This document shows positions 1 through 63,200 of a DNA stretch of 64,000 nucleotides, piece by piece. The stretch's first letter is position 1, and each line of letters begins with the position of its first letter. Both the position numbers and the translations under genes were made by a program. Under the pieces are notes generated by a model that saw nothing but the letters and a program-made list of their open reading frames with translations, ran no database searches and had not been told where the DNA came from. This stretch comes from Dromaius novaehollandiae (lineage: Eukaryota; Chordata; Aves; Casuariiformes; Dromaiidae), in assembly GCF_036370855.1 (NCBI RefSeq), contig NC_088098.1, positions 137,536,721 through 137,600,720 of the forward strand. Direction: 5' to 3'.

Positions 1-584
1 GAGATCTCTTTCCATTTTGGAAACAGGAGTGGAAGAAAGGCGTCTTGAGCAAGATACTCCTTTGTGTGGTGGTGTGAGAGGATCTTTTAAGACATCAACC
101 TGCCCAATTCTTCCAATGTATTTTGGGCCTCTTGGACTGCTCAGAGGGGAATGCTGGGACCTAGGACTGTCCTCTAGAAGTTTGTGCTGTGTAGTCAAGG
201 GGACTCTGCTAATAGCACACTGTAGAAGTAAAGGGGACTGCTTCTTTCTTGATGTTCTGCTTGCAGCTGCATCCTGGATCACTCTGTTTTGGTAGTTTCT
301 GTAGGCTTCTTCCAGGTACTCTGCCTCTTTTTCTAGTTCTTTAATTCTAGCCCTGGTTTGAGCCATACATTCCAGGTCAGAATCTGGAGAAGCACTCCGT
401 GTCTGCAGCTGCTGATGATAACCAGCTCTTGCAACAGCATTTCCCTTGATGACATCATTCATAATCTGAGTCTTCAAGAATGCACTATCCACATAAATAC
501 CCGGAGGTACAGTTCTATCATCAGTGAAGTCAATGATAGAGCGGTCAACAAATGAAGGCTTTGGATTCCGATACACTTCATTTT
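1..584 (-). CDS. OFD1: OFD1 exon 16 equivalent, partial (runs off left edge)
   Basis: This large exon starts after TTCTAG at 585 with [20 protein letters not shown]. It contains a further short coiled coil ([20 protein letters not shown]) and then a Ser/Pro-rich, probably disordered region with several S-P pairs. It is open to the window edge, where it encodes [18 protein letters not shown]. Human exon 16 is also the largest, at about 0.6 kb. Confidence 0.95.
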
Positions 585-12500: not shown

Positions 12501-15500
12501 TAAAAATTCATCATTTAAAAATAAATTAGTCACCATAGTTATCCTACCAAAGATTGTAAAGATTTTTCTCTCTGTATAAAGTTCCTGTATATGAGTAGGA
12601 CCATCACAGAAAGATCCGCATGGTACAACAGCTATGGTAGCACAGAAACGGCATGAAGTAATCCATGTAGTTACCATTATGTCTTCCAGAACATATTTCA
12701 AAACATAATATTAACAATCCATCTCAAATGTTTTAACTATCAGCTAAATACCTAGGAAAACATCTGAGCAAGAACAGAATTGTAATAGGACTTTAATCTG
12801 ATTTTAAGAAAGGTGAGAAAAGAATGTACTAGTGATAGGTTTAACCTTGATTATTACTTCAGGTTGCACATGAATAAATGATGAATGAACACCATTCATC
12901 CAATTTATTCATCCATACCATTTATCCAAAATTATCTGGGGAGCCTTGCCTGCAAAGGTTGCACTTACCAAGAGATTCCCTGTAAGGAGGCATTAAGCCT
13001 GTCTGAGTTTCTGTGTCACGGCTTTCCTTACTTAGATGATGCTCGATCAGTTCCGTTAAGATCTGCATAAGAAAACCTTTCAAGATCCAATATATTGGTC
13101 ACTTCTGATTTCATACCAAAGTGAATTTTCAAGCATATAACTAAAAAAACAATATCCACTAAACAAAGAAAACTCATCCAATTTACTAAAGGAATACAGT
13201 GAAAATTAAATAAACTCAATGCTAGTAAACTATTAAGATTTTTATTATAAGCATGTTCCGGTCCATCTCCTTCTATAAAAGCTGCCTTTTTGCTACTTTT
13301 CCTTTCATGCATTTCTCTCTCATTTCCAGGCTTGTCGGAGAGTGCAAATTACTACTACTTCAATTATGAGGATATTATGTAACAAGAGAAAAACAAGAGT
13401 TTTTAAAGATCAAGCCACTTCAGCCTGTATAATATAGTTAGCTGTCACCATACAGACATGGTAACTATTTCTTACAGAAAACAATGAAAAATTAACTAAA
13501 TCTTTAGCAAGGTATTGAAATACTCTATGCAACCTAACTCAGTCAGTTATAAATAAATCAAAACTGAACTCACCAACATTAGAGTGCAAAGCTTCCGAAG
13601 AACATTAGATTTAATATCTGATTACTGATTTCATACTTTTAAGTCATTTATTTTAGTTTGTAGGCGAATATTAACACTTCATCCACACCACAAATAAGAG
13701 TTGCATTATCCTGAAATACAATGTTTACTATCTAGATGAACTGCAAATTTCTTCAAAAAATCCTATTAAATCCAGATTATTCAATACTAATGTATACTCA
13801 AGGAATTTAAGTTTCTATTGCTCGTATTTTAATTAAAATGAAGCTGACATGACTATTATTGTGTGCATCATGTATAAACATCATATACCTTTTTTATTTT
13901 CCTTCTGAGTTCCCAAAGTCTGTAAGAAATAAAAGATGGCATTTTATCCAGCCTATTTCATCAAAAACTGTTACTCAAGTGTATTTTTTGAATCAAAATC
14001 ATTTTACCAATGATTTGTAAAGACTGGATTTTGGATTGATCCTGATTAATTGAAGAAGATCTTGCATAGTCAACAGCTTTGGGGGAAAAAGAAAGGAAAA
14101 AAAAGATAAATCAGAGAAGGTCAACTATCTTCAAAACATTTCAAATATGTAAGCCACTATTTTACACTGTTATAGAATAATGTTTTCCATCTAAGAAAGA
14201 TACATTTATCACCTTGTAAAATCACTTTCAGAGGCTTGCTGTCCTAGTAGCATGTTTACTATCTCCTTTATCTAAGATACCTGGCAGTCAGTGTGCAGTC
14301 TCATGACTGACTAAAGCTTGGAAGAGATGGTTGTATTTTCTCCTCAACCTGGACACATGCTCTTGCTGCTGTCCTTGCACCATTTCTAGCTACATCATAT
14401 AGAGCAGATCAGCTCACTAATACAAATGACAACTAACCACTCTGCAGTTCAGAAGATTAACTTTCACTTAGAAACATCTTCACCACATTATGAAGTAATC
14501 ATAGAGGGAAAACAAAGAAAGGGCAAGGACTGCTTTTTCCAGCCACAGCCTGTAGTTAGAACGGCTTAAACTGATTGTGAACCACACTTTCAGACAATTA
14601 ACTGGGCCAAAAAAAGAGGCTACCTTTAATCAGGATCAGTTCAAGTCGTCTGCCACATGGCAAAAAAAATGGTCATGGCAGACTGTGGCTGTGGTTGAAG
14701 TAAGTGTGACTTCAGGAGGCTCTACATCTTTCCAGAACAGCATCATTAGCTTATTGCCAGTTTAAAAGTATTTGTGAAAATAGCCCTGGTCAGAAGCTGC
14801 ACTGTCACAAGAGGGGATTTTCCAGTTATGCTGAAAGACTAATATTTGCAAAGCTCCCAAAAGTCTTAAAAGAAGTAAATTATTGAGCTTACCTTCTTCT
14901 TCTCTAATCCACTTTCTGGAAAGAAAACAGAAAGTGAATACTCATAGCCACATCTCTGCAGATGATCTGCCACCAAACTGTTGGAAGCTGTGATCAAAAG
15001 TGAGCCATGATCACTTGCAACAGTCTGTGGCTGAAGTTCTCCACTTAAAATTGGGTGCATTAGTTCATGGATTAGCTGGTTTCGGAGCTGTGTCTGGTAC
15101 AGAAAAGAAATTTTAACAATAGGTAAACAGAGAAAATGAGAGTTTTTATTTTCCAAAGACCACGGGGGTCTCATTGTATTTGTATCAGCTGTATTGCAAC
15201 CTATGTAACAGAAAGGGGAGAAGACTAATTTTGACAAAATTTGGACTGCTCAAGACACCATGGTTTTTTTCAACACTCACCAATGGTGCTACAGCGATGT
15301 TTGACTTTCCCTCAAAATACAGGACTGAGAAGAAATACTGTTTTCTGTCCAAAAACTCACATGAATACCATGCCAGTACTCTCCCTCCCCCCAGCTTCAT
15401 TTTTAATTAATGCTTTCCTGTTCTCCTTCTCCCTGTATTAAGTGAAGCCCATCTGATGTAGTTTCAGTTTCAGGTATGGTTGAAAAACTCCCAAGTCCTC

Positions 15501-28234: not shown

Positions 28235-28840
28235 TCAACAACAAGATGAATTAGGTTTCGGTTTCCGATGAAGGTTTACTGTATCTGTTTGAATAAAGTG
28301 ATCTGATCTATCTTCAGAGGCTAGAACTCTTCTGACAGCTTCCTCAAAGGCTGCTGCAACATTAGTGGCATCTTTTGCACTGGTTTCAAAATAGGGATGG
28401 TTGCCATTATTTCTGCACCAGGCTTGGGCTTCTTCTGTAGACACTTGCCTTTCATTAATATCAACTTTGTTACCCAGTATTACAAATGGAAAACTTTCAG
28501 GCTCCTTGACATCTGCATAATAAATGAATTCTTTCTTCCAGTTGCTTAAGTTCTGGAAACTTTGAGAGTCATCCACACTGAAAGTAAGCAGGCAACAGTC
28601 AGAACCTCTATAGAAAGGAGTCCGCAAGCTCCTAAAACGTTCTTGACCAGCTGTGTCCCATATCTGCATTGTAACAAAGTGTCCATCCACTTCCAAATCT
28701 TTATTTAAGAACTCCACACCTATTGTATGGAACAGCTGTGCATCAAACTTGTTAGTGACATATCTGTTCATAAGCGAACTCTTCCCAACTCCACCATCTC
28801 CTAGCAGTATTACTTTAAGAAGTGATGATTTTGCTGCCAT
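28235..28840 (-). CDS. RAB9A: RAB9A, Rab GTPase of late endosomes
   Basis: Rab9A directs transport from late endosomes to the trans-Golgi network, including recycling of mannose-6-phosphate receptors. The 201-residue product is complete, the usual length, and almost identical to human. It has the P-loop GDGGVGKS at residues 14-21, switch-I Thr39, WDTAGQE at 61-67, NKVD at 124-127, ETSAK at 152-156 and a double-cysteine prenylation end (Cys200-Cys201). All coding sequence is in one exon. The exon begins at 28,874 after a TTTGCAG acceptor, giving 34 bases of 5' UTR before the ATG. RAB9B is the main alternative, but RAB9A fits the sequence and the neighbours. Confidence 0.97.
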   Translation of the reverse strand: MAAKSSLLKVILLGDGGVGKSSLMNRYVTNKFDAQLFHTIGVEFLNKDLEVDGHFVTMQIWDTAGQERFRSLRTPFYRGSDCCLLTFSVDDSQSFQNLSNWKKEFIYYADVKEPESFPFVILGNKVDINERQVSTEEAQAWCRNNGNHPYFETSAKDATNVAAAFEEAVRRVLASEDRSDHFIQTDTVNLHRKPKPNSSCC

Positions 28841-40084: not shown

Positions 40085-40515
40085 ACTGTGCACCTGGAAT
40101 ACACCTGTCCCAGTGAAATACACAGCCCCAGTGTCGCGTGGGGCTGGGCAGGAATGCGCGGGGGCGGCCACCTTGGGATCCCCTTGTGCACAGGGGCCGC
40201 GTTTTGGCTCCAGCCCTCACTGGGGGGTTGCCTGCACCATGCAGCCTCCTCCATGCACCCCTGATCCCCACTTGATGCCCCGGACCGCCTTGGCCCAGCC
40301 TTGCTGCTGCGGGCTCCTCTGGTGATCACTGGACTCTGGGCTGGTCCTGATTATTGCCAGTGGGACAGCTCTGCTCTTCTCCTTCGGGTATCGGGGGACT
40401 GTGCCCCTTTTTACTGGATGCACCGCCCCAGGCTGCCTTGTCACCCTTGGCTGCTGGCCTGCCACCCCGTGCTAAGCAACCCACTCCTGCTGCTGCTTCA
40501 CAGGTGGGTGCATCG
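40085..40515. other. Isolated GC-rich block of unknown nature
   Basis: Roughly 430 bases of clearly GC-rich sequence with scattered CpGs, bounded sharply by AT-rich DNA. Several overlapping open frames of 70-90 codons exist on both strands, none recognisable. It could be a decayed transposon, an LTR-like remnant, a distal regulatory island or a non-coding exon. Confidence 0.4.
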
Positions 40516-40612
40516 GGAAGTTGATTTTGGACCAGAATAGATAATTGTTTTGATGTCACATGGGCTAGCAAATGGCTCAGAGTAACATCCCAATGGCAAA
40601 TAAAGGACATTT

Positions 40613-45863: not shown

Positions 45864-46952
45864 TTACAAACAGACCCATCTGCTATGATACCATTGTTCT
45901 CCACATGCATTACAAATAACGTAAGTCATCATTTGGTCATCTAGATTTGTGTTTCGCACCCAACCTGGAAGAAAGAGAGTTCCTCTGGCAATCATTGTGA
46001 CAGTGCAATCAAATTTTTCACAGCGCCTACACTTTATTTTGTTTGTCTGTGTGCCATTAATGACTTGTGGAAGCTGATGTTCTTGCACAGAAGATTCTGT
46101 ATACAGAGCCCTGAGCTGTTTCAGTTCATCACTGGCCATTTCCATTACTGTCATCTCAGCAAAGACCTTTGGACTCAAAGTCCCTGAAGAAAGGTTATGT
46201 TTTAAGTGACAACTTTTAGGGTTCTTCAAGTTAGAGATTTTGCTTCTGATGCAATTTTTATACTTCTTGTCATTTTTGGCATAAAGAGCAAAAATATGCT
46301 CTTCAATTTCTTTTGACAGCTCTAGCCATTTATTGCTTTCTTCTTTGTCTTTAGGAGAACTAGTCAAAGCTTTATAAAGAAGATCTGTGCATTTACATCT
46401 CAGAGCTTTCATGTGATCATGCTGCAAGCTTGCTTCATCAACAAGAGGTTTAAAATCTGCATTGTTAGTATGCTGTTCTTCAAAAGGAGAAAGCTGATGA
46501 TCCATGTTGCTTTCTGGGTCATTATATACCATATTTTTGGCAACACTTTGTGATGGGACCAAAATTTTAGAACTAGCAGCATCTAATACCTCCTGCTGAC
46601 ATGCTCCATCCAACAGTGACTGTTCTTTGGGAATCACACTGAGATGTTCATTGTCTTCTTCCAAATACACAGAATCTGACTTTTTAACTTGCATTGAGTG
46701 AACACAGTTATTCTTGTAAAGTGCTTTCCACCTAGATAATAAATGCTTTGCTTTCTTTTTCAACACTGCTGAAGGGCAGCTCTTGAGTACTCGGTATACA
46801 GCCTTGGCAGCTTCTGTCCCCTGAAGATATTCTATAGTCATATCAATAACTTCAAGCTCTTTAAGATGATTTTCAATATCTTGGAAATTATTCTCAGACA
46901 GTAGCTTTTCAATACAATGGGCTCTGTGCACAATATTTTTCTGGTCAGACAT
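45864..46952 (-). CDS. TCEANC: TCEANC, TFIIS-like elongation factor paralogue
   Basis: TCEANC is a little-studied relative of transcription elongation factor TFIIS (TCEA), presumably nuclear. The 362-residue frame is complete in one exon; human is about 350 residues. A TFIIS N-terminal helical (LW) domain spans about residues 5-80 (GTEAAKAVYRVLK, LLSRWKALYK). A low-complexity linker follows, then a TFIIS central-like domain at about 180-285 and a C-terminal zinc ribbon. The ribbon ligands are Cys308, Cys311, Cys347 and Cys350. The acidic tip that in TFIIS is Asp-Glu and drives RNA cleavage is Asp338-Asp339 here. The exon starts at 46,960 after GGCTTTCAG, so 5' UTR exons lie upstream; an in-frame ATG begins 8 bases inside. 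Confidence 0.93.
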   Translation of the reverse strand: MSDQKNIVHRAHCIEKLLSENNFQDIENHLKELEVIDMTIEYLQGTEAAKAVYRVLKSCPSAVLKKKAKHLLSRWKALYKNNCVHSMQVKKSDSVYLEEDNEHLSVIPKEQSLLDGACQQEVLDAASSKILVPSQSVAKNMVYNDPESNMDHQLSPFEEQHTNNADFKPLVDEASLQHDHMKALRCKCTDLLYKALTSSPKDKEESNKWLELSKEIEEHIFALYAKNDKKYKNCIRSKISNLKNPKSCHLKHNLSSGTLSPKVFAEMTVMEMASDELKQLRALYTESSVQEHQLPQVINGTQTNKIKCRRCEKFDCTVTMIARGTLFLPGWVRNTNLDDQMMTYVICNACGEQWYHSRWVCL

Positions 46953-46960
46953 TTTTAAAC
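46953..46960 (-). other. TCEANC: TCEANC 5' UTR stub and splice acceptor
   Basis: GGCTTTCAG precedes GTTTAAAA and then the ATG. The acceptor shows that TCEANC mRNA has at least one upstream exon, most simply from the CpG island at about 59.5 kb. Confidence 0.8.
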
Positions 46961-49900
46961 CTGAAAGCCAAAAAAAGTGTCATCACATTTACTACAGTTG
47001 TGTCATCCGTGAATTCATTTTTTTAATATTTTCACAAGGTTTTCTTTTTGTTGTATGCTATTTTACACTATTTTATTTGTATATATATCACTGGTTTTGC
47101 CAACTTTTTCATGAAGCTGTGTATAGTGAGCATGGCAAAAGCAAAATGCGGGGGAGCCTGAGTCCTGGGAATGTGCAGGTGGGTAAGCCAGTTTAACTTG
47201 TGAAAGGAAAATACTGGCGGGACAGAGAAGAGCCTAGGAACTTCTGCTGGGCTGGGGTTAACAATTTAAAAAGTAGGGCATGACACTAGTTTTTAAGGAA
47301 AAGCACGGTTTCTTGCCAAAATACATGGTTACAAAGACACTGCTTGTCCTACATTTTTTTCTATGCACGTACGCCAAATTAGAAGTACACAAGCAGATTC
47401 TCAACTACTGCAAGAACACAGGTAATTACACAATCACTCTGCCAAACTTCTGAGACTAGAGATAGATTTTACACAATGCTTTGTGCATTAATAGACTCCA
47501 GATCCACTGGACTACTGAGGAGCAACTGAGTTCTGAAATTCAGCATTTTTCACCAAAAGAGCCAGAGGAACATTTGCTGATGTTTAAAATCTAGATATTG
47601 CTAGTAAATGACGCCCTTTGCAAAGAAAAAAAAAAGAAAAAAAAAGAAAAAAAAAAGAAAAAAAAAAGAAAAAAAAGAAAAAAAGAAAAAAGCTTTATAG
47701 GCAACATAACTCCCCCTCCTCACACATATCTATAAGAAAAACATAATTTAGGGTTTTTACAGTACTGGTGTCAACAAACTGAGTTGAATAATAAATACTG
47801 TTTTCAGAGAATCAGTGTGTTTATCACACAAATTTATACAGTCTATTAAAAAATATGTCTAGGATCTACTGCTGTAACAGCTTTTTGAATAACATAACAA
47901 TGTCCTCAGGCTGGCAAATACACTCTGTACTAGCTTCCTGATAATCTTCAAGGGCAGACTTGTAAGTACATACTACGCTAATTTAAACTGAAAGCTGCAA
48001 TGACATGGAAGTTTACTGCAAAACCCAAATCCAATTGCTGCCATCTTTCTAGAATGCATATGTAAAGTAATCCTTCTCAGAAAAACTGACTTATGTCTCA
48101 ACTTTTGGGAACCCTTATTTAAATATCTTTTCCTATTCTTCACAGTTTTCAAGCATCTGATTAAAAATGAACTCAGTTAAAGTTGCAATGATACAGAATA
48201 TTAGAAAAAGAAAAAAAAGTGGGTCCAGAAAATCCATATGATAAGGTGATGTGTTTATTTTTCTTTTTTTTTCCCCCAAAACAGTCTGTCCTTGTAGCCA
48301 TACCCTAACTTAGCAAGATTTTTTCACAAATCCTATAAATGCTGAGATATTTGGCTCTCTCTGCTTTGTGTGTTTTTATTTTTTTTTAAACAAACACCAC
48401 AAGCTTCCATTTGATTTCTCATAACAAACACCTTAATTAAAATCAAAATTATTGGTTTTACAAGCCTAACTTTGAGTAGGGAATAACATGTAGCAAAGCT
48501 ATATTTTTTACAAATTTGTTTGTTGCTGCCACTCATCTCTACGACACAGAATCACATTCTTTGCCTTGACCAATAAACCAGAAGTCCATTTTTCTGTCAG
48601 TAAGCATTAAACAACTATTGATACATGCAGAAATTATATATGTGCATCAAGAACTACCCATAAAACATACAGAGTTTGAAAGTTTTAGAAAACACATTAT
48701 ATTAGTTTATACTAACATTTACAGCAGACAGATGAAATTACGTGGATTGCTTCTTCATTTCAGACTTTTTCTCAAGCCTTTGTTATTTCAACAGAATAAA
48801 ATTAAGAAGCTAATGTGGGAACGATATCTCATCAAAAAATGCTGACCTATTTTAGGTGAATTTTTCAGGCACCTGTTGAAGATGCCAGAGTTTTCAGGCC
48901 TTTAAAATAATTTCTATATATCACCATGACTTGATAAAAAGGATTTCTTTAGTTAATAAACAATAAGTAGCTGAATACATTTTATTGGAAACTGCAACGC
49001 TAAGGTTGGGAGCAACTCTGCAGCAGGTTTAAACAAGCAAGACTGACATAATCCACTGGATCTTGAGCCAGAAAACACATTTTGGTCCTTACACCACCCA
49101 TGACTCTCAAAAATACCTGAACCTTTCACTTGTTATGCAAGAGATCATGTGTTATTCCTCTTCCAACAGTTTCTCTTTACAGCTGCTAACTGAGAGGTGA
49201 ATCAGACTAGTAAACTTTTAACCAAGGTCTCTGACGTCACCCTCTCCCTTGCTGGCTCTGTCGTCATATTAGTTTGCTTATGAAGGCAGGGTGGTTCCAA
49301 AACAGTGATACCTACAAATTGCTACTTGCTATTTCTGTAACTTCTTAAAGGGTACAGACACTTCCTTGTGTATGTATAAAGCACCTCATACACCTATTGT
49401 CTTACAGTAATAACATTCTTAAGGCATCCCCCAGTGTATTCTGACTAGCATTAAATGAAAAGAAAAAGGGAATTTTAGAATGCAGATTCTCGTGGCTTTA
49501 GTAAGATTTCTTTTGTTTCCTTTTTAAAGCCTTTTGACACACAAAAAAACTTCTGCTTAGGACAATGTGCAAATTTACACAAAAAGTTTAGTAATAAAAA
49601 TTATTCTCCTGTTTGCCAAGAAGAACTGAATACAGAATTGAGTGGTGCGTTGTGAGCATAAGCATGTTCCTCTTTTGATAGGATTTAATCTTCTCAATTC
49701 ATACACAAAAATAGCATTTTGTCTGAAGTAGCATAAATCCTGATTCTACTCCAGAAACAATCATCAGCCAGCTAGAGACTGATACAAGGCCAGCTACACA
49801 TGTGTACATCTAAATGAACTTATAAGCATGCATCTTGCACCATCACTGTTTCCATGATGAAATCTCCCAAAAACAGGTGGGAGAAGAGATATGGCTGGAT

Positions 49901-52070
49901 AACTTGCACACTCTGCTGCCTTTGGTGACTACCAGCCCTGTTTGTTTTCTCTGTGCCAGAAATAAGTTAAAACTTTAGGTAGGGCCTCAAAGGTCTGAAG
50001 AAGAAGAGACAGAGTGAGAGACAGGGAGAAAGGATAAACCTACATACTGTTTCTACAATCAGGAACCACAGACCAACCTAACCTCAACAGCGAATGCTGT
50101 CTACATTCACTTAACCTGTCTTTACACAGCTCATTCTTGACTGATATTTTTGAAATCTTGTGAGACCTCAGTAATGGATATTACAGAAACAGATCTACCA
50201 GTCAGATATAGTTCCAGAAACAAAGAAACAAGATGCATTTTTCGAATATGTTAGTTGAACTTGACCCATCTTCATACCAAAATGTATGTATAATTGCATC
50301 TTTGCTCATCTGTTCTGCTGTAGGAACACAGAGAGCTCGTGAGAGTGGAAAGCGGTGTTCTCTTATGTAGGGCGGCTATCATTAACAGTAGCTAGATTCC
50401 CTGTTTCCCAAACACTAAGCAGCTTATGTTAGAAGATGATGACCTGCTGGCATTTACTGTTTTTCATGCAATTTAGGGCAGAGGTAGTGCCACTGTCATA
50501 TGCTCAACCAAAATGTTTTGCCTTGTGCCTTCGAATCAGCTCTGCTCCTTCTAATACACTCCACTTTAAACATATTTTTTTCACTTCTTGTACCTATACA
50601 CATGTATTGTATTGTGCTAAACATACTAGAAAAGATTACCTATCCAAATGCAAGATGAACTTATAAATTCTCACCATTTAGTACACAGTATGTAAGTTTA
50701 TAAAAGCTATAGGTTTGCATTTTTTTTTTAGGATGCATTTTTTTTTCTAATAGGCAAGTCTAAGACAACCTGTTTTTTTTAACCCTCTAGCAAATATATT
50801 ATAGGTTGTTTTGGACTGGATTAAATGTAGTATATACATTCTCCTTAGTATCTTTTCTCACATATACACTAAGGTAATAATTAAATTCTTGAAAATTTTA
50901 ACATTTTTGTAGTTATGCATTAACTTTTCCAAGTTCATGCAATGTTAAATTCAAGTACATAAAGGTTATGGAACAATTAAAGAAACAAACCCAAAACAGA
51001 ATATGGACCCTGAATTAGGAACAATGATTTAAAAACAATCTTAGTAATTCAATCACTCAATAGGCAATTCACATTTAAGGCAAAACAATCACTTCTTAGG
51101 AAAGGCTTTCCTCAATATGTATGATGAATAGTAAAGAGGCAGAACTGAGTGTCTCCCTTCAAAATTATTCAGCAAAGCTAGAAAGAATAATTGGAAGTCA
51201 TTGAAATATATGATAAGAACTGAATTGAATCCCATAATCAATGACTTTGTTGGAATGGGATATTCACTGGTAACTGGCCAAAGCACAAGAAATAGCCAGC
51301 AGAGAAACCACTGAATAAAGGTAATGTGCATCTTTATCTATGACGACAAAGACGTTTCTGTGGGGAAGGCAGTCTTGGAATGGCACTGGCTTTGTTGTGT
51401 GTACCTAGCTTGCACAGAATTTTCAGATCTTCCAATATGAAATGTAATACATACACAATATTGCGCTAACTACTCAACCATGAATTTCATCTCAGTTTCC
51501 AAATTAAAAGGCAATGTGGTCAGAAAAAAAATATCATTTGTACACTTTTTGCTCTGCAAATAAAGCAAAGACTGGATTTTAATCACCATGGTTGATGGAG
51601 AGTATTATTATACAGAACTAGAAATTAAACACAGATTCCTGTACTTACAAAGCACATATAAGGTTATGAAACAGTTCATTTTACTACTGCAGGCTTTTTT
51701 CAGAGGATGAGGTAGAGTTGTTCCCTAATACTAGGAAACCTGCAAAGCCTGTCATCTTAAGTCTAGATGTCAAGACCTCCTTTGCTTCTAGAATCAAGGC
51801 ACAACATGATTCCCCCAAATAATTGCAGAAAACATTTTTTTTCACATATTTGTAGGGAAGAACAAAGTATTACTGATGTGTGAAGTCAGTGCTAATACTG
51901 GAGTATATTTTCTACAGTAGTTCGCTTGGAACCAAAGGAGAACATGCCTCAGTTCTTTCCTGCTCAGACTCCCATTCCTTGAATGATGGTGTTTCTGCTG
52001 TAAAACAAGTTTTCTGTGTTTTGTAGAATGATGGCAAAGTTAAAAACATACAATCTATATTCTTCTCCCA
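46961..52070. other. TCEANC intron or intergenic DNA
   Basis: About 5 kb of AT-rich sequence between the TCEANC coding exon and the last exon of the candidate small gene. It holds an A-rich tract at 47,622-47,691 and several T runs. No coding exon is convincing. Confidence 0.55.
47622..47691. repeat. Purine (A)nG tract
   Basis: Seventy bases made of A runs of 5-10 separated by single G residues. It may be an expanded poly(A) tail of a lost retrocopy, but no retrocopy body is visible beside it. Confidence 0.9.
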
Positions 52071-52087
52071 GGTAGATGTTTGCTTGC

Positions 52088-52093
52088 TTTATT
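52088..52093 (-). terminator. Poly(A) signal of the candidate gene
   Basis: AATAAA on the minus strand, three bases beyond the TAA stop at 52,099-52,097. It would give an unusually short 3' UTR. Confidence 0.45.
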
Positions 52094-52096
52094 TTG

Positions 52097-52189
52097 TTAG
52101 CATGCAAAAAGAACAGCGGAAGTCCGTGGTGTCCAAGACAGTAGCCAGCTCTCCCACTGCCCACTGTTCCGAGATTTTAAAGTAATCTT
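52097..52189 (-). CDS. Candidate gene, last exon
   Basis: After a branch-like TATCTAAC and TAATAG, the frame reads KITLKSRNSGQWESWLLS then WTPRTSAVLFAC and TAA. A second AG three bases on (AAG|ATT) is an alternative acceptor that keeps the frame. The polypyrimidine tract is poor, so this exon is the least certain of the three. Confidence 0.45.
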   Translation of the reverse strand, partial: KITLKSRNSGQWESWLLSWTPRTSAVLFAC

Positions 52190-55100
52190 CTATTACGTTA
52201 GATAAACAAAATCCTTGTTTGAAATAAAGATTTACAAGTAGAGAGACTGAAATTTAAAACAGCTATACGTATTCTACAAGTATCTATCATTCTCTCAATT
52301 TCTCAGATGACAAAAGTGAGGCTTACAGGGTGAAATGACCTTCCTAACCTGGTTCAGTAAGTTACCTGCAGAATGAAAAATATAAGCATGACATCTCAAC
52401 CTACAAGCTCTACCTCTTTTATAACCTCACAGTCCTAATCAGCTGTTCATAATGTTGAACATTTGAGAACAAAGGTGGAATGAAGAGGAAGCAGAGAAAA
52501 GCCTCGAAGTTTTCTGAAGAGAAAGCAAGAGTTTCACAGAAAGCTAGCTGAAGTTTTAAAAGGTAAAATGTTACCACTTGAGGGAGCTGTAAAATAGCAG
52601 ACCCATGGAATCTTGTATAAAAGTGCATAATAAAGAACTCCAGGCTGTTAAGAAAAAAAGAAAACTATTTCCCTCTCTAGGACCTTTAAGACTGGCTATG
52701 GAGACTTCATACTTCTAAGGCACCCGTTTGCCTAAAGTTAGTCACAGCCCCTGTATGTCCCAAGGTGCTCGTATACAGACATGAGGGAAAGTGTGCACCC
52801 CTTATCTAGTCACTGTCCTGCACATTGCTCTTTCATTCATAAATCACTACCTGATTTAGTACTATTTGCCAAATGCTGAACAAACATTGGTAAAACTAAC
52901 CTAATCATGTACTTATACTCCTTTGGTACTCTGCTGTCTTGCTAGCTGAATAGGAAAGAAATACAAGAAAAAGGTGAGTATACATGTTCTTTCTCTGAGG
53001 TTATGAAAAGCATCATACATTTTTGTTACTGCATATCTACAGTAACAAGTACAAATGACAGTTTTGTGAAGTACAAAATAAACAGTCCCTACCTCTCCTG
53101 CAACTACACATGGCATTTCCATCCTGCTTAACTTTATCAATGCATGACAACATTCGCTTCTATTGAAAGTGTCTACTTGAAGGTTACAAGGTAAAGATTG
53201 ACTCACATTTACAATCAGATCCTCTAACGCTGCGCTGATGAGGTACTTCCTTGCCAAATCTTCAGTATCCTTCACGCTGTCTGCATGGTATACTGAGTCG
53301 CTTGTGTATACAAGAATACACGATGGCAAACAATCAAAAATTTGTAAGTCAATTTCCTCCTAAGAAAAGAAAGATCAGGTTGCCTCAGATTTGAAATGAC
53401 TCTCATACTGTAACAATACTAAATTAAAAAATTTAAAATCAATGAAATGACAAAAAAAGAAAAAAACTCAAGAAACAGCCTGAGACATTTGCTGCTAACT
53501 GCAAAGACAACCCTTGGAAAAAACAGTGCCTTCTGCAAACTCATTTGGGGCAAATGCCTCATCTCAGCAATATGCCTGAAACAATTCAAAGCCATAGCCT
53601 ACTCTGCCTTAGCACAGCTAACTCCCAGATATTCCAAGACAAACTCAATGCATCCAAGTGAGTCTGTATGAGTATCTTGAAAGTGTAGAGAAGACTGAGC
53701 ACCAATCCTCCTCTCCCTAACCTGAGATGTAGATGATTTTTTCCTCAAAATTATTCTATGTAATCAGAAGAAACCCAGAAAATAGGCAAGAAAAATATCA
53801 GAAGAGGCTGAGTTCTCCTAAAGGTGTAACAGATCTTCTACTAAAAATGTGGTCAATGCTATAGTTGAGATGCTGTGTAGCACAGCCCTGGAAACCCTGT
53901 ATTTCTTGCCTTGAGCAACCTAAATTCCATAAAAACAATGAAAATGATCAAACATTATTTCAAACTTGCAAACTAAAAGGAAATCAGAGACTTCTCACAG
54001 CCAGTCTCCAGACCTAAAAAACATTCCTTCATCCCATCTACAGTGGAAGAGCAGATATTAAAGATGTCACCAATAAATCATTTTCCTGCGCTTTTATTTA
54101 ATCTTGGCCAAAAAGCAGAGCTCTTCCTGTTTCTCAGCAGGACTGCTCCCCCCCACCCCAAGACTTCTGAACTTTACAGAGTTTCAGCTTCGAAGAAAGC
54201 CACATGAATACAATTGAGTTAATACAGTAATAACTGAGATAATACAACAGTACCGTTGCCAGATGTCCATGACCACTGTACACCTCATTGACCAGAACAG
54301 TCACCTCTTAGTCACAGATCTGGAAGAAGCAGAGCACATGATCTCAGCATTACTGCAAAACCATTCCAGAAATCTCTCCTTCACTTACAGAACTCTGTAA
54401 CTGTAGTACAAGAGGCAAAATGAACCTTCTGTTTCTCTGCACACAACAGAGTAGAATCACAGTGAACAAGACAAAGAAAATTATGTTAAAATAATTAATG
54501 TTATGTAAAATTATGTTAAAAAATGTAAAAACATTTTTAAAAACAAAAGGAAAGAGTATGTGAATACTAGGAAACAGTCTGATAGAGCAATAGTTTCATG
54601 CTGCATCACCTACGCTAAAGAGATTGCTTTAACTACAGTGGTGTTAGCTGGTCTGGATTTATACTGTCCCTAGTTGGATTTCTCTCACTGTATCCATTCT
54701 CTCATGGCTTTCTTTGCCAGAAAGGAAGTTTGCAGAGGAGAGACTGGAGGCTGTAGACTGCATTTATGTGAGGATGTACACAAAAGGCTAACTTTTATCC
54801 TGATTTGGAACTGCTTCCCTTAGAATCTGAATTTTTAATTAGAATAGAATTTCTATTTTCTAAAAAAAAAAAAATCAATAGACTGCATAACAAAGTCATC
54901 AAACCTCAGGGATCAAGATCAGTGTAGAGCTGTCAGCACATTTTTCTGATAAGATCAAACATACACGGAATTAACCAGGAAGGAAAATCTGCTGCCCTTA
55001 CCAGACTGCTTAGCCACTGTCTTCATTTGGAATCAGCATATATGCTGGAGCTCAAAAAAAGACTAAAAACATTACAGCTACACCTTGTGAATAACATCTT

Positions 55101-58100
55101 TGACTTTCCCCACTGGTAAAAACTAGCTGAGAAAATTATTTATGAATTTAACCACTTATGCTACAGCTGTTGCATTCTAAGAGTTCTAGTTGATGTTACA
55201 ATGAAAGCAGGCATCCCAACAGAAGTTTTATCTTGCTGAAGGTTTCTTTTAATAATTAGTTTAGAATTAAACTGATTCTCATTGGATGGTATTTTATCTT
55301 TTCCTGTATCTTGCCTGCCTCACCCATGTGAATTTTTCTACTGAACCGAGCGGTCATCTATCTGAATTAGGCAAACAAGATGCAGATTTTTACCTCGAAG
55401 CCTGAAAATATTACAGGTACTTAATTATTCCACAGATTCTAAATCTTTTAATTTCCATTATTCCAAGCATTGATATGCTTGTCTTTCTTAATATAATATT
55501 TTTAAGGAGCTAAAAAATGACAAAGTTTAGCTTTAACAAGTTACAGACTGCAAGGATCCAGTAGAGGTATTAGCTAATCTCTTTCATGACAAGATAGCTA
55601 TACAGATTCATAATCTATTCTAATACACTATGATTCCATATGGCAATAATAAAATGAATATGTAGTTCAGATAGACTTGTCATGAATTACTTTGTGTTTT
55701 TATATGCTTAAGATTTGCACCATTTCACACACAGAAACATTTACATGGTTTCTCTGATCTACAATCAGATGATTTTTTAAGTATTAAAATTATTAAAATT
55801 ATGTTTTCAAGTTTGGATGCAAGGTCCAACATATTTTCTAAAGGGCTCTCCATTTTTCCGTATGTTTGTGACAAAGCTGTATCGAAACTGGCAGAGAAAT
55901 ACCTTCTCTCAGTCACTTTTCAGGACTTGCCTGTATCAGGCAATAGCTGTGTCCAGTGGATGGGAATGTTGATTCTTTTCTCTGCTGGAGCTCCCAGCAG
56001 GCCAGAAGTCAAGCTTTTGACATAAGGAGCACATGTTCAAAACATGAACTATTACTTGGCCACAGATGACAAATATATATAGGAAAAGAAAAGTGATTAA
56101 TAAAATTTTAACAGAAGACTCAAATATGAATCAATGGTCACTAGCTATGGTAGGAATAGGGACTGTGACACATGTAATTTGCAAGAATTAATCTGACCTA
56201 CTAGAGCAAACATATTTCAAGGGGTTTATGTTTTTTGCATGCTGTATATAATTTTTCACAAATTGTAATTATTGTGATTATAAATTAACAGGCTCTCTTG
56301 CAAACTACACAGTATACCTTACCATCTGCACAAAAAAACAAGCTTAGCAGAAGCATCTTTTGCATTTTCCCAACATACTTGTCATGAACAGCAAAGCTTA
56401 ACCTGAAATAAGCAGAAAAATGATAGTTTTTCTCATGTCATTCTCACAACATCATCTACCCTAGCACCCAATTAAAACTTCACTGCCTGAAATTATTTCA
56501 TTTGCACTTCGTGGAATGATTGCTTCATATCCTAACATTCCCATTTTTTCCAACAGTAACAGATTTTAAAAGTAAATGAATTTTATTATTATTATTATTG
56601 TAAAATTTGAAAGACAAATTGAAGAACGATACTTCACTATTTTCTCACAGCAAGTGGATGCTATGAGCATTTTTCTCACTCAAAGAAGATACCAGGAGGA
56701 GACACCAATATTATTTACCCATGCTCAGTGTCATAGTTTATAAGTAAACTAATTTAATTCAACACAGGTTAGTCTCCTAAACTGTTCATCTGGATGGACG
56801 GAAACCATCAAATTCATACTTTCAATTGCTTAGGACAGTAAACCAACAGATAATTGTTGCAGCAAGGCTGCAACATCTTCCAGGGGAGTGGTGTTTTCTT
56901 TGAAATTAACTATATTGCCTCCTATAGGTAATGCTAACAGTTGCCATTCATGAAGCTCTCTGTCTCTCTCTTTACAGCCTTTTACCATTCACATCTTTCC
57001 TCCATAGCCAGAATAATGAGTTTACTTCTTCAGAAAAGAAAGCTGACACTATCATGTACAATATGATTCCAGAAACCAGTACTTCAAAAAATGAAAAAAA
57101 TACAAGCATTCTATTAAAACTTTAAAAGACTGACAATATGTACCATGTTTGCCTATAATGAAGTTACCTCCCCAGTTCCTGCTGAGCAGTAGATCTTTCC
57201 TTCACTATTTTCTAACTTTGCTTTTTTTAAAGCTGAATGAATGAGAAATGAAAAAGATTTTTTTTAACCTCTTACTGAACTGAAGTGCTTGCTGTGAGCT
57301 GCAGGTTTAAAGCTGACTTTTATGTGACAGACCTCATCTAACATTCTTGTATGTCTACTTATTTTTCAGTCTCCATAAATACTGCTTATACCCTCTTGCA
57401 GATGCACTTATTTCAAATCAGGGAGCCTCAATCTAAACGAAGCTTCCCTAAGGTATATCTCATACCCTGATTTCAGTGAGTTCCTACGTACGCACAGAAA
57501 TCCAGCAAAATAGACTGGCTTGCAGATAGGGGCCTAACTCGACAAATAAAAATGTACTCAGAGCAAGTTATATCTTTCCAAAGTACATGTGTTTGCCTAA
57601 TACTTTAGAAACAAAACATGAAACACTTTGGAGAGAACAAGTGATTCTTTCTTTAGGACACAATTCCTTGCTAAGATCTCTTTACAGTTAATTCTTAATC
57701 ATATATAGTTGCAAACAGACTTAAACTCCAGTACACTACAATTGAAGTAAAAGTTCTGTCTGCGTTGTCTTTTTATAACATACTCTGCTGAGAAAGTAAA
57801 TATAGTATAAAAGTTAAGCATATAAACAATAAAATCTGTCTTGTGAACTTTTGAGGGTGACTATGTATTTTTTGATCATTTTCCAGATGAACATAAACTT
57901 ATTTACTGCTCTAACATTCAATTTCTAGCTCACCCTTGGCTCAACGCTACTTCCATTTGCCATTTAGTTGTTGGGGATGTAGTTACATTTGGTATCACTT
58001 TACCACTCTGTTACAGGTTTTCCACTCAAAAATTATATAACTTTTTCCTTTTAGAAAAAAATACTCCTTCATATGCAGAAAAGCACATATATTTCTCAGT

Positions 58101-59541
58101 CTTTTACAGAGAAAGTAAATTATGCTACAAAGGATGATATTTTTAAGATGTTAATGACTTAAAAATCCTTCTGCTAAAATACTAAAACGAATGTTTAATA
58201 TACATAAAGTCTAAACGTTTGAGAGTCTTCAATGACACCTGACACCGACTGAAAATAAGAAAGATCTGACATACTTGAAATGAAATGGATTTTTAAGTCC
58301 CTGGTTATTAAAAATAATACTACACTGCAGAATTAAAGTGTGAACTCTTTAATTCCATTCTAAATTGATGGCAGCAATTGACTTATCTGAAGATATTAAT
58401 GCTGCACAGGAACTAACAGAATAAATCTCAAAAAAAAATTCCCACAGTACCACCATCACAGATACTCATCTTGCAGTTTCCAAGTTCAGCCTCTTCCACA
58501 GTGGGGATTATGGCCACTCATGATAAATCAGTAGAGTAATTACAACAGCACAGAGAAGCAGCACTGCCATTTGTATTTATACAAAACCTGCCAATATTTG
58601 CTTGACGTCAAAATCAACTGGAGGCAACGACTTGCGTGGAAGACTTTGGGAGCTGGTCTAACTGCCCCAGTGGCCAATCATCAGCGTTGTTACGGGGATG
58701 TCGGACAACTGCCTAAGAAACTAGGTGGAAATCTGACTACAAATTAGTCTGCAATCACTCCCATAAAAAAAGGTGGGCCAGCACAAATTTTGATTGCGTT
58801 CCAAAATACCACTCAGTAATCTGAGGAGCGTGCTAACTCCGTGTCTTTTTTCCAGACTCATCATTAAAACTTCCTCAGATCTGTTCCTCCCACTCCTTGG
58901 ACAAGTCCAGCTTTAGCTGGGTCCACTGCTGTGTTCCTTACAGGCAATTTTCTGCCCTCTTCCCAGTCTCCTTGGCACACCGAAGACGGAAAGGGAACAC
59001 TGACCTCCCTGCCGCCACCACCACTCCTCAGGAAACCGTTATCGCGCCACGTCGTCCTTCACCATCCCTCACCGTTTCTCCTTTGGCCTGCTCATGCTCT
59101 AAGCCCCGGGGGCCAGAGCCCGGGCGTGCCACTCGTGTCACCCCATGGGAGAAACGGCACCAGCCTCGCACCCCTGTCAACGCGCCACCGGGGGAAGCAG
59201 TGGGGACGGCTGCTGCCGGCAGGGGTGGGGGGCCGCAGGCAGCCATTTCGGGGCGCCAACACTCCGCGGGGGGGGGCCGCGAGACGCCATTTCGGGGCGC
59301 TCCGGGGGGCCGACCCCCCCCCCGCACCGCTCGCTCCAGCCGGTGCCCGCCGAACCTCCCCGCGGGCCGCGCTCCCAGCGCCCGCAGGCGGGGCGGTGCC
59401 TCCCCGGCATCAGCTTGCGGGCAGCGCGGGGGGAGCCCACATGCCTCCCTCCCGCGGCCCTGCGGAAACGCACAGCTTCACCACCCCTCCTCCCTCCCCC
59501 GCCCCGACCAGCGCCGTTACCTCTCCGCTGGGCCTCAACAT
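52097..59541 (-). CDS. Candidate small gene of unknown function (three exons, about 125 aa)
   Basis: I do not recognise this product. Three minus-strand exons, all in phase 0, join to one open frame: 59541-59521 (MLRPSGE), 53359-53093 (89 codons) and about 52189-52097 (29 or 30 codons plus TAA). The first two junctions carry good splice signals; the last acceptor is weaker. The protein has no signal peptide or membrane span. It is cysteine-rich (DCLPSC, ECCH, final FAC), with strand-like stretches (SCILVYTSDSVY, WESWLLSWTP, TSAVLFAC) and a helix-like middle (DLARKYLISAALEDLIVNVS). An AATAAA lies four bases after the stop. It may be an independent gene or an alternative product from the TCEANC promoter; if exon 2 joined the TCEANC exon instead, it would stop at once (GTT TAA). 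Confidence 0.55.
53093..53359 (-). CDS. Candidate gene, exon 2 (267 nt, 89 open codons)
   Basis: A strong acceptor CTTTCTTTTCTTAG precedes GAGGAAATT, and GGAGAG|GTAGGG closes the exon. The whole exon is open in phase 0 and starts EEIDLQIFDCLPSCILVY. It ends SRMEMPCVVAGE. The lack of any ATG at the start and the balanced residue composition argue for an internal coding exon rather than chance. Confidence 0.65.
53360..58950. other. Intron of the candidate gene or TCEANC 5' intron
   Basis: About 5.6 kb of AT-rich DNA between proposed exon 2 and the CpG island. A short (ATT)n run lies at about 56,582-56,600 and an ATGTTAA-rich stretch near 54,480. No further exon is convincing on either strand. 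Confidence 0.55.
59521..59541 (-). CDS. Candidate gene, coding part of exon 1
   Basis: ATG TTG AGG and four more codons end at a strong donor GAGAG|GTAACG inside the CpG island. Upstream on the minus strand lie CACTTCCTGT (ETS type, read on plus) and AAGATGGCGGC. The same exon could serve as non-coding exon 1 of TCEANC. Confidence 0.5.
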
Positions 59542-59589
59542 GGCGCCTCTCCCCCACACACTTCCTGTCCCTCTGCACGCAGCGCAGCC

Positions 59590-59600
59590 GCCGCCATCTT
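59590..59600 (-). promoter_or_regulatory. YY1 / TISU-type element AAGATGGCGGC
   Basis: An exact AAGATGGCGGC on the minus strand. Such elements bind YY1 and, near the cap, can act as an initiator with a very short 5' UTR (TISU). Its ATG opens a 20-codon frame that ends in TGA overlapping the MLRPSGE start (ATGTTGA). Confidence 0.6.
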
Positions 59601-59756
59601 GGCGGTGGGGAGGGCCGGGTCGGGTCGGGCCGGGCTGCGCGGGGTCAGGGCCGGCCCTCAGCGCCTGACGGGCCGGCCCGAGGTCGGCGCTTGCGGCAGC
59701 GTGCAGACACGGCGCTGTGTGCTCGCCGGGTGCGCGGGAGGAGCCCGGGCCGGGGC

Positions 59757-59804
59757 ATGGAGCTGTCCCTGGGTAGCGGTGCTTCAGCGCCGCTGTCAGA
59801 CGGG
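59757..59804 (+). other. Possible divergent plus-strand first exon
   Basis: ATG GAG CTG and 13 further codons end at a donor-like ACGGG|GTGAGC on the plus strand, at the outer edge of the island. It could begin a divergent transcript. I found no matching second exon before the window end, so a short non-coding divergent RNA is as likely. Confidence 0.2.
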
Positions 59805-59989
59805 GTGAGCATAGCCCAAAAGGGGTCCCTGTGTTCACCCCAGAGTCACTGCAGAAATGATCGTGCCCCTTAGAAAGCAATAGGAATAGAGGGGGAAAGA
59901 AAAGCTTTTCCATCATAAATGGCCTCAGGCAGGAGGCTTCTACTGATGTTCCCACCTCACAGCCCATCCAAGATTTTGGCATCGCTCTG

Positions 59990-60240
59990 TTTCAGTTTCT
60001 GAAATTGCCGTGCAGTGAATGGGGCACCAGGAGCGTCCCCACCGGGGCGGGCTGCCAAGGGCTGCTCCTCGGCGCCTTGGCCCCGCCACGCCTGGGGCAC
60101 CCAGCGTGGCGGCCGCAGAGAGCCCTGCTGCGCTGTGGCACCGGAGGCAAACCTTGCACACGGAGCTTGGGAGCCACCGGTTTTCCAGAAGGCAGGGAAA
60201 GTGCTTTGGCCCTGCTCTATCCGAAGCCTTATGGAAAAAT
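59990..60240. other. Secondary GC-rich block beside the CpG island
   Basis: A GC-rich shoulder separated from the main island by about 150 bases of ordinary sequence. It ends abruptly at GGAAAAATAG|GTAATG on the plus strand, which resembles a donor. No protein is recognisable. Confidence 0.3.
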
Positions 60241-63200
60241 AGGTAATGCATAATTTTAAAATTTAACCTCAGTGTCAGTATGTGCTTTCTCAAGCAAACG
60301 CAGGTAGAGAAAGAAGGTATGACACGTTAAGTAGGGTAATCTACATAAGTATCATAGCTGAAGCTAACAGAGAAGGGCAAAGCCACTGTAAACCTTCCCA
60401 TTTTCAACATGCTCCTCCATTACTTTTAGTATAACCAAGTAGTCTGTTGGATGACAAATTGAACTATCCATACGCACAGGGTTAAAGATAAGTATTATAA
60501 AACATACTTCATAGGGTAACAGCTTTTGGATATAATGACGTGCTGAACATATCTGATTCAGCAGTAAACATCTAAAAGTTAATGTATTTTAGTCAAAGCT
60601 AATATGTTTGTTACTGATTTTTTATTGCTGTGCTTTCTTCTTTCATATGTATTTTACAGAAGACATTCAAAGTGCTCACATAAAAAATTAATACGTCTAG
60701 TTGGTTCTGTTGCAAATGCAAAGGTGTATGGCTTTTTTTTTCTCAATCACAGTGGAAAATCTGGCTCATTTTTTAAGATAAGTTTTTAGTTTAAATTACT
60801 AGAGAGGCATGTGGTGCCCTCTGCAGACAGTGAAGGCTCCTATCTGAACTTAACTTTTCAAAGGCATTTTTCAACATGAATACCATGTAAGGCAGACACA
60901 CCTCTTTTTCCCTGCTTTTTTACATAATAAACATCACTAGTACTAATCACAAAGGGAAAAAAAACCCCAGCATTGTTGTATATGCTGTAAAAATGGTGTA
61001 AGAATAAGCAATTTATTAAATCATTGTAATGAACCAGTGAATCAGTGTTCTTTATTGCATACTATTAAAATGTCTTGAGCTAGCAGGGTCTGTAGAGTTT
61101 GAAGATGTAGACTTTTTATTAGTGCTGCAGCGGCTGAGTTATACACTGGTAACTGAGGAATCTTAAATGGTTGCTTATTTCATGTAATAATTAACTCTTC
61201 ACACAATTTATGTGTGTCAAGCTAACAAATGCATTAGTGATTGAACACATGGCATGATGGTTAGCATTGTTCCACATTGCTGCATATTACAGGCAAACGG
61301 AGACCACAGTTGAGATCTGGCCTCCTCTGTGCCTCATCTCTGTGACCCATACAGCAACAAAGTGTGGGACAAGACCTATCCCAAACAGTCTGTTGTTTTC
61401 AAGACAAAAAGAGATAAAGAATTTGGATGGAAGAGGTGACTTCCCAGACCCGTCTCAACAAACCCCTAGCAGAACAGGAACACAGTCCAGGCCTTCCAAG
61501 TCCAAATGCAGCGTATCATCCAAGGGGCTAGCTTGCATGTATTCATGTTTTTCTGCAGCATGCATATATCATGAACTTAGCAGCCACTATCATTGCAGTA
61601 TCTGAGACTTTCAGTTTATTCTCAGTTTGAGGGTCTTAAGAGAAAGCTCTTCAATGCTAGTTTTCTTTAAACTTTTTCTATCTGCTGAGATTGTGAATAT
61701 GGTTTGTAGAGGATTCTTTACACCCTCTGCTGAAGTGTGTTGCCCACCACAGACACAGAGCTCCCTTGGCAGAGAGAAGCACAAGAACTTTTTACTGTCC
61801 ATTCTTGGAATTGTAAACATTACCTCTTCAGAATAGCTCAGGCAAAATATGTTCTGTTGGGAAGGACTGACTAACAGGTGTTTCCTGTATAATCTCTAGG
61901 TACAAGCACTGGATCTGTGATTTGAACTTTCTAAAACCCTGTGCACAGGTAATGGTAGCAGCTGTTTCTTATGGAGTGGAACCAGGGAAACTTCACTGAA
62001 AATGTAAAAAGGAACTGTTTGGTCACTTGCTAAATAGGGAGGGAAAGTCAATTTCTGCTCCCAGTAATATCAGTATAAAATCAAAATGTCAGTAGAAATG
62101 TCAGTCAGAAATCAGATGAGTAATAGATTTACACAAATATGTCTGAGAACAGAATTTGTCCCTGTATCTTCAACAGAAAACTTGAACACTGAAGTTGTGA
62201 CGAATGATTAAAAAATACCCGTGCTTTCTGACTGAAAATCAAAGACAGGCAAAATTACAAATGCCATTATTAAAAATACTATTAATCCTACAAAGAACCA
62301 TAATCTTGTTTGATTTATATTTCATGCAGCCTTTTTTTAATACATTTGCATAGCACTGAAATGGCCATGGGATAGTTTCATACTCAATCTCCTTGATAAT
62401 ATGACTGTTTGCAAAGATAAAATGAGAGAGAGTTTCAGAATTATGGACATTTTCTGGCACAGGCTCTGAAACATTATTTTTAATATTGTGTTTCCTGCCT
62501 AGGAAGAATTATATGTCATCCTTGAAAAATCTAGAAAGCCAAAAATGATTAAGAGCAGTACTGACTGATTAAGAAGGGCCCCCAAAGTTCTTTGTGTTAG
62601 GGAAAGGATGTTGCTGGAATAGCAGGGCGAAAAGTGACAAGCAGAGACAGGTACTGTGAAAAACAGACTTTGGAGAAGTTGAAGGTGTGGGAGGCTAATA
62701 AGAAAATGTTTTCCATTGATTTTGAAGACTTCTTTCCAACAGAATTCCTCTGGGAATTGGCCTGATTGGCCAATAAGTTCATGCCTCAACCTGTCACTGG
62801 CAGATTTAATTTCTTTGCAATTTTTTCTGACTCCCAAATCCAACACACATTAGCCAGATGAGGCATCTGTCCTCTGACAGAGGAATGTAGATCAAAAAGA
62901 CAACTTTTGACTTTGCATGCAATTTGAGTGGAAGTATGCAATTATATATGTCCTAACATAAGGCCCTCAAATCATTTCCATCTTGTGTAGGGAGGCAGCT
63001 GGGATAGCAGCAAAAGCAGAAATATGCATTTTTAAAATGGTTTGTTTATTTGATGATTTAATAGATTGATTGACTTACCAAATCTTGTAGTAAGAGGATA
63101 CATTAATACGATTAGGGAGTAGTAAGACCAGGCACAAGCAAATATCCCTCATCCTGAGTTTTATCCCTATACCTGAGTTTTAGGTAGGCTTTCCTGTTTC

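Follow-up and report, generated by a model that had tools for sequence, protein, structure and literature searches.

A predicted optional leader exon of TCEANC within a proposed three-exon gene of Dromaius novaehollandiae

We analyzed a 64-kilobase (kb) stretch of the 1.47-gigabase Dromaius novaehollandiae genome (C1:137536721-137600720, hereafter the window), in which a first-pass annotation had proposed an overlooked three-exon gene on the minus strand, nested in the 5′ intron of TCEANC. Our analyses point, with about even confidence, to a different arrangement: the middle piece (exon 2) would be an optional, or cassette, 5′ leader exon of TCEANC, exon 1 would be a first exon in the CpG island, and exon 3 would be no part of the transcript. 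The predicted transcript runs from exon 1, through exon 2 when it is included, and enters the TCEANC coding exon at 46960. The three-exon proposal probably does not represent a gene, and the match that supplied its last piece most likely arose by chance.

Exon 2 has the features of a leader exon: it lies on the same strand as TCEANC, between the CpG island and the coding exon, and it is bounded by good splice sites. Consistent with this reading, exon 2 taken whole carries no frame-specific coding signal. Feature coordinates are given in Table 1.

Splice signals and chance controls

Splice sites were scored with a consensus matrix that was not trained on this genome, and were ranked among the AGs and GTs of the TCEANC 5′ intron. 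The exon 2 acceptor scores 11.6 (rank 4 of 898 AGs), on a par with the acceptor of TCEANC itself (11.3); the exon 2 donor scores 9.6 (rank 4 of 767 GTs) and the exon 1 donor 7.3. An internal donor in exon 2, AAT/GTGAGT at 53207/53206, scores 8.1 and would yield a form of 153 nucleotides (nt). The first-pass annotation had described splice signals on all three pieces. Those of exons 1 and 2 are of exon quality, but the alternative exon 3 acceptors are poor, with scores of 0.6 at 52189 (rank 374 of 898) and -3.8 at 52186 (rank 686 of 898). For exons 1 and 2, its suggestion of an alternative product from the 5′ part of TCEANC survives. The better partner for the exon 2 donor is the TCEANC coding exon, which gives the most economical structure.

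Acceptors and donors separated by 60-350 nt were paired and scored on both strands of the window. Exon 2, with a summed score of about 21.2, is the sole pair at this level that is stop-free over 200 nt or more; an open pair with the same score, 24528-24441, is shorter. Outside CpG islands, the open pair of 200 nt or more that comes nearest in score is 15093-14893 (20.9). It encodes a LisH domain, so that the scan also picks up what is probably a genuine coding exon. Three other pairs lie in the TCEANC intron. The plus-strand pair 52681-52973 has the second-highest score in the window (10.8 + 12.4) with no frame open, and is possibly an antisense noncoding exon or a product of chance; the minus-strand pairs 54157-54319 and 56323-56402, each scoring about 20, are possible further leader exons.

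Strong splice-like pairs and long open reading frames (ORFs) each turn up from time to time in long AT-rich introns, and exon 2 may be a coincidence of the two that is never spliced in. We regard this explanation as rather unlikely. Several results favor it: the whole of exon 2 scores like stop-free noncoding sequence, as described below; the unmasked window holds 145 stop-free stretches of at least 60 codons, the longest of 135, some of which may be unannotated real exons; comparable three-piece models occur in control stretches; and searches found no relatives of exon 2. Two top-ranked splice signals nonetheless seldom coincide with an open frame: an open pair as strong as exon 2 arose in 2 of 200 dinucleotide shuffles of the intron when any length was accepted, and in none of the 200 at a length of at least 240 nt.

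Chance controls are less kind to the complete three-piece model. As proposed, the pieces do fuse in phase 0, giving a joined frame of 126 codons (125 with the second acceptor), and the stop does adjoin an AATAAA, which lies 3 nt past the TAA at 52093-52088. Yet 86 of the 423 AGs downstream of exon 2 lengthen the frame by at least 29 codons, and four of these have an AATAAA within 60 nt; they form two neighboring pairs, one of which is the proposed exon 3. A stop with a nearby AATAAA is therefore weak evidence for exon 3. Under loose splice thresholds, 3 of 100 dinucleotide-shuffled sequences yielded a three-piece model as long and with an AATAAA. So did 2 of 8 further stretches of real sequence from the window, each 3.5-12 kb long; both positives are strands of 1-12000, where real exons were not looked for. 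The TCEANC intron itself holds one such model, and 44 when no AATAAA is demanded, the longest counting 171 codons over exons 2 and 3. Because so many downstream AGs and models extend the frame as far, exon 3 is an arbitrary choice with a poor acceptor. Exon 2 alone goes beyond chance; the whole three-piece model carries less weight. More generally, phase-compatible joins are cheap in AT-rich introns, and splice-site ranks together with frame-specific codon usage are what part a good piece from a poor one.

Table 1. Features discussed in the text. A slash marks a splice junction.
Feature	Position	Strand	Sequence and remarks
Exon 1	59541-59521	minus	ATGTTGAGGCCCAGCGGAGAG/GTAACG
Exon 2	53359-53093	minus	TTTCTTTTCTTAG/GAGG ... 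GGAGAG/GTAGGG; candidate cassette 5′ exon, 267 nt, phase 0, 89 open codons
Exon 3 (judged spurious)	52189 or 52186 to 52097	minus	Weak acceptors; stop TAA at 52099-52097
Exon 2 3′ end, frame 2	53093-53153	minus	ATG at 53153; joined reading MLSCIDKVKQDGNAMCSCRRGLK-MSDQ...
Probable first exon of TCEANC, 3′ part	59521-59600	minus	In CpG-rich stretch; donor GAG/GTAACG, 7.3; two upstream ATGs
TCEANC coding exon	45864-46960	minus	ATG at 46952; Pfam TFIIS_M E 1.4e-29, Med26 E 9.8e-12; acceptor 11.3
RAB9A	28235-28840	minus	Ras family by Pfam domain
OFD1-like exon with LisH domain	14893-15093	minus	Domain match

Coding signal and searches for relatives

A raw codon score was rejected after it proved to track G+C content, with CpG islands heading the list. 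We instead used a frame-specific score from which the other five frames are subtracted, which removes most of the effect of base composition. The training set comprised 17 rows (4378 codons) of this genome with less than 52% G+C and no stops in the matched region: TCEANC, RAB9A and 15 of 60 family loci (L004-L063), the other 45 having been dropped for G+C or stops. All 15 are kinases or G-protein-coupled receptors, and because some are related to each other, the leave-one-out comparison is not fully independent.

By this measure exon 2 taken whole scores like noncoding DNA and does not show the frame-specific codon usage of genes. Its score of -0.015 is matched or undercut by 2 of 41 coding windows under leave-one-out (0 of 41 without it) and reached or exceeded by 19 of 32 stop-free noncoding windows. 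Period-3 power is 1.23, a value reached by 56 of 203 noncoding windows, while 6 of 41 coding windows are as low. The second part of the exon, codons 52-89, is anti-coding (-0.158), with 633 of 665 noncoding windows as high or higher and 0 of 109 coding windows as low. Exon 3 in its proposed frame is likewise anti-coding (-0.135; stop-free noncoding windows as high or higher in 1044 of 1188, coding as low in 0 of 138). The joined three-piece frame is not supported as a protein, nor is the claim of an overlooked gene, given the poor acceptor and anti-coding frame of exon 3 and the missing whole-frame signal in exon 2. We regard a three-exon gene that ends at a separate poly(A) site, at 52093, as highly improbable: matching phases and a stop followed by AATAAA speak for it, and the acceptor ranks, the exon 3 frame and the abundance of equally long alternatives speak against it.

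A different frame over exon 3, DYFKISEQWAVGELATVLDTTDFRCSFCMLTK, is coding-like (0.255 over 31 codons; 6 of 1105 noncoding windows as high). It belongs to the minus-strand stretch 52089-52246, SLLVNLYFKQGFCLSNVIEDYFKISEQWAVGELATVLDTTDFRCSFCMLTK, of which 31 of the last 32 codons were scored; its stop TAA lies inside the AATAAA, and a TTTCAG stands just upstream. The stretch has a single match in the genome, and its last 32 residues have no Pfam family. We leave this frame unexplained and do not count it as support, because it needs a phase-1 entry, which neither good exon 2 donor gives, and has no relatives.

Several results weigh against exon 2 being simply a leader exon. Seven closed pairs elsewhere in the window outscore it, including the plus-strand pair within the TCEANC intron; pairs as strong as exon 2, mostly closed, appeared in 55 of the 200 shuffles; and its splice scores come from a matrix not trained on this genome. 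Codons 1-51, a cut that ends at the internal AAT/GTGAGT donor and was chosen after that donor was seen, are coding-like (0.089), with 22 of 282 noncoding windows as high and 35 of 77 coding windows at or below this value. Finally, 89 codons stayed stop-free at local composition in a fraction of only 0.00145 of 20,000 simulations, a rarity that a mere leader exon does not explain; a 148-codon frame was open in 5e-5 of these simulations, that is, in a single run.

The first-pass annotation had been unable to match the joined protein to a family. In our searches no relative turned up in Pfam, NCBIfam or PDB, nor did any credible paralogue. Pfam and NCBIfam gave only sub-threshold matches (Ndh2_N, E 0.075; ABC_perm1, E 0.11; and DUF5436, E 0.0065, with 17.2 bits against a cut-off of 27 and mostly in the read-through beyond the donor), and the PDB sequence search returned none up to E 10. 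An origin of exon 2 in a repeat or transposon was considered and rejected, since the exon has one DNA match in the genome and, as protein, matches its own place and one worthless second site (E 1.9, 33% identity, an internal stop). The same origin was rejected for exon 3, which has one genome match both as DNA and as protein; the word search used for the genome skips very common words. Against viral and prokaryote contigs, exon 2 gave 13 and 89 pattern matches, respectively, with none confirmed, as expected for a vertebrate sequence. A search of viral contigs with TCEANC, meant to reveal stray vertebrate DNA, gave 14 pattern matches, again with none confirmed.

Upstream open reading frames before TCEANC

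Two features require an exon ahead of the TCEANC coding exon: stops in frame with its ATG lie upstream in the genomic sequence, and the exon itself opens with a strong acceptor, TTGGCTTTCAG/GTTTAAAAATG (11.3). The protein read from the canonical start aligns with TFIIS from its beginning (residues 6-81 with TCEA1 4-79, E 2e-4). Phase-0 entry into this exon from either exon 1 or exon 2 reads GTT TAA AA ATG, and the frame that begins MLRPSGE... at ATG 59541 consequently ends on the predicted junction, 2 nt before the TCEANC ATG.

The first-pass annotation had placed the start of its gene at this ATG in a CpG-island first exon. The position is right, but this is not the first ATG of exon 1. Upstream of it and in another frame, AAGATGGCGG opens an upstream ORF (uORF) of 20 codons, MAAAALRAEGQEVCGGEAPC and a stop, which begins at 59597, runs over the start of the second uORF and has its stop one base past ATG 59541. 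The well-placed ATG of this first uORF is supplied by AAGATGGCGGC in exon 1 (59538-59600, minus strand), which we take to be a YY1-like promoter motif.

Splicing of exon 2 would change the second uORF. Without exon 2 the leader carries the 20-codon uORF and one of 8 codons (MLRPSGEV and a stop); with exon 2 the second uORF has 97 codons, or 59 when the internal donor is used, and its stop position is unchanged. Exon 2 would also add further upstream ATGs to the leader. Longer uORFs and extra upstream ATGs are generally expected to reduce translation of the main ORF. Since exon 2 would bring both, its inclusion would be expected to lower TCEANC translation, or to make it proceed by leaky scanning or re-initiation. 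What can be read directly from the DNA is the uORF geometry, together with the phases and the splice signals; the use of exon 2 and its translational effect are predictions. If real, the leader exon would be an ordinary case of splicing altering uORF length before a TFIIS-like gene.

The second uORF could also be a product in its own right, in that exons 1 and 2 would encode a microprotein of 59 or 97 residues from a bicistronic TCEANC mRNA. We consider this improbable. In its favor are the 89 stop-free codons, the coding-like score of codons 1-51, a frame that ends just ahead of the main ATG, and a single-sequence AlphaFold prediction whose best model has a predicted local distance difference test (pLDDT) score of 55 and a predicted template modeling (pTM) score of 0.45, compared with values of 35 and 0.26 for another ORF taken from the window. 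That single control is too few, however, and the other four exon 2 models have pLDDT scores of 35-44. Also against a microprotein are the anti-coding score of codons 52-89, the choice of the codon-51 cut after the donor had been seen, and the 20-codon uORF, which has the better start context and runs over the microprotein's ATG. There is no family or structure match either: a Foldseek search with the low-confidence exon 2 model gave 0 of 115 matches at E <= 0.001. We give little credence to the fuller version of this scheme, in which one splice choice would set both a family-less 59- or 97-residue microprotein and TCEANC translation. Should the leader exon be real and its frame also prove conserved in birds, it would represent an unnamed bicistronic microprotein.

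An alternative TCEANC N-terminus, compatible with the leader exon, would start at ATG 53153 in another frame of exon 2 and add 23 residues, MLSCIDKVKQDGNAMCSCRRGLK, before MSDQ. The junction 53093/46960 keeps this frame open into TCEANC, and an in-frame stop lies upstream of the ATG. We nevertheless think such an extension quite unlikely: the canonical TCEANC start already matches that of TFIIS, and four other ATGs precede ATG 53153 in the exon 2 transcript. The coding score of the extension is compatible with either class, being equalled or exceeded by 591 of 2029 noncoding windows, with 33 of 180 coding windows as low.

Gene neighborhood and comparison with known systems

TCEANC is preceded by a CpG-rich stretch at about 58.75-60.0 kb, which we take as the putative TCEANC promoter. 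An Rfam scan of 46900-60300 gave no match reaching the gathering score. Elsewhere in the window, the Ras-family gene at 28235-28840 is presumably RAB9A, and we assume that the exon with the LisH domain is OFD1-like. A segment at 40100-40530 is G+C-rich (62-68% in listed segments) and lies apart from the three large CpG-rich stretches of the window; on its plus strand, 40194-40503 is the top-scoring splice pair, and it is closed. Elsewhere in the genome, contigs C33 and C35 share many family matches whose scores are identical or almost so, most of them offset by about 13.7-13.9 Mb, as if one chromosome occurred as two haplotype copies.

Exon 2 resembles a part of the TCEANC 5′ leader in that it shares the strand of TCEANC, a putative CpG-island promoter and first exon lie upstream of it, and the coding exon requires an upstream donor. 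It differs from an established leader exon in that its membership of TCEANC transcripts is predicted. Judged by title and abstract opening, none of the papers found to name TCEANC deals with its leader or with a bird product.

Bicistronic mRNAs with a uORF-encoded microprotein are described in the available part of PMC13303939, which is not among the papers found to name TCEANC as a whole word. They include ASDURF-ASNSD1, MIURF-MIEF1, PYURF-PIGY and SLC35A4/STREMI, and the SLC35A4 uORF has 103 residues (PMC13303939). In that part of the paper, 14 transcripts are retained after filters for conservation or purifying selection and for ribosome footprints, and 50% of the downstream ORFs lack introns (PMC13303939). 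The TCEANC arrangement is similar in placing an upstream ORF, here of 59 or 97 residues, before a main ORF on one predicted transcript, and in having that main ORF within one exon. It differs in that the mRNAs of that set, as described there, passed footprint and conservation filters, whereas the TCEANC case is drawn from sequence and lacks a whole-frame codon signal. Set beside these systems, exon 2 is best filed as a probable alternative leader exon that carries a uORF, and as such is nothing out of the ordinary.

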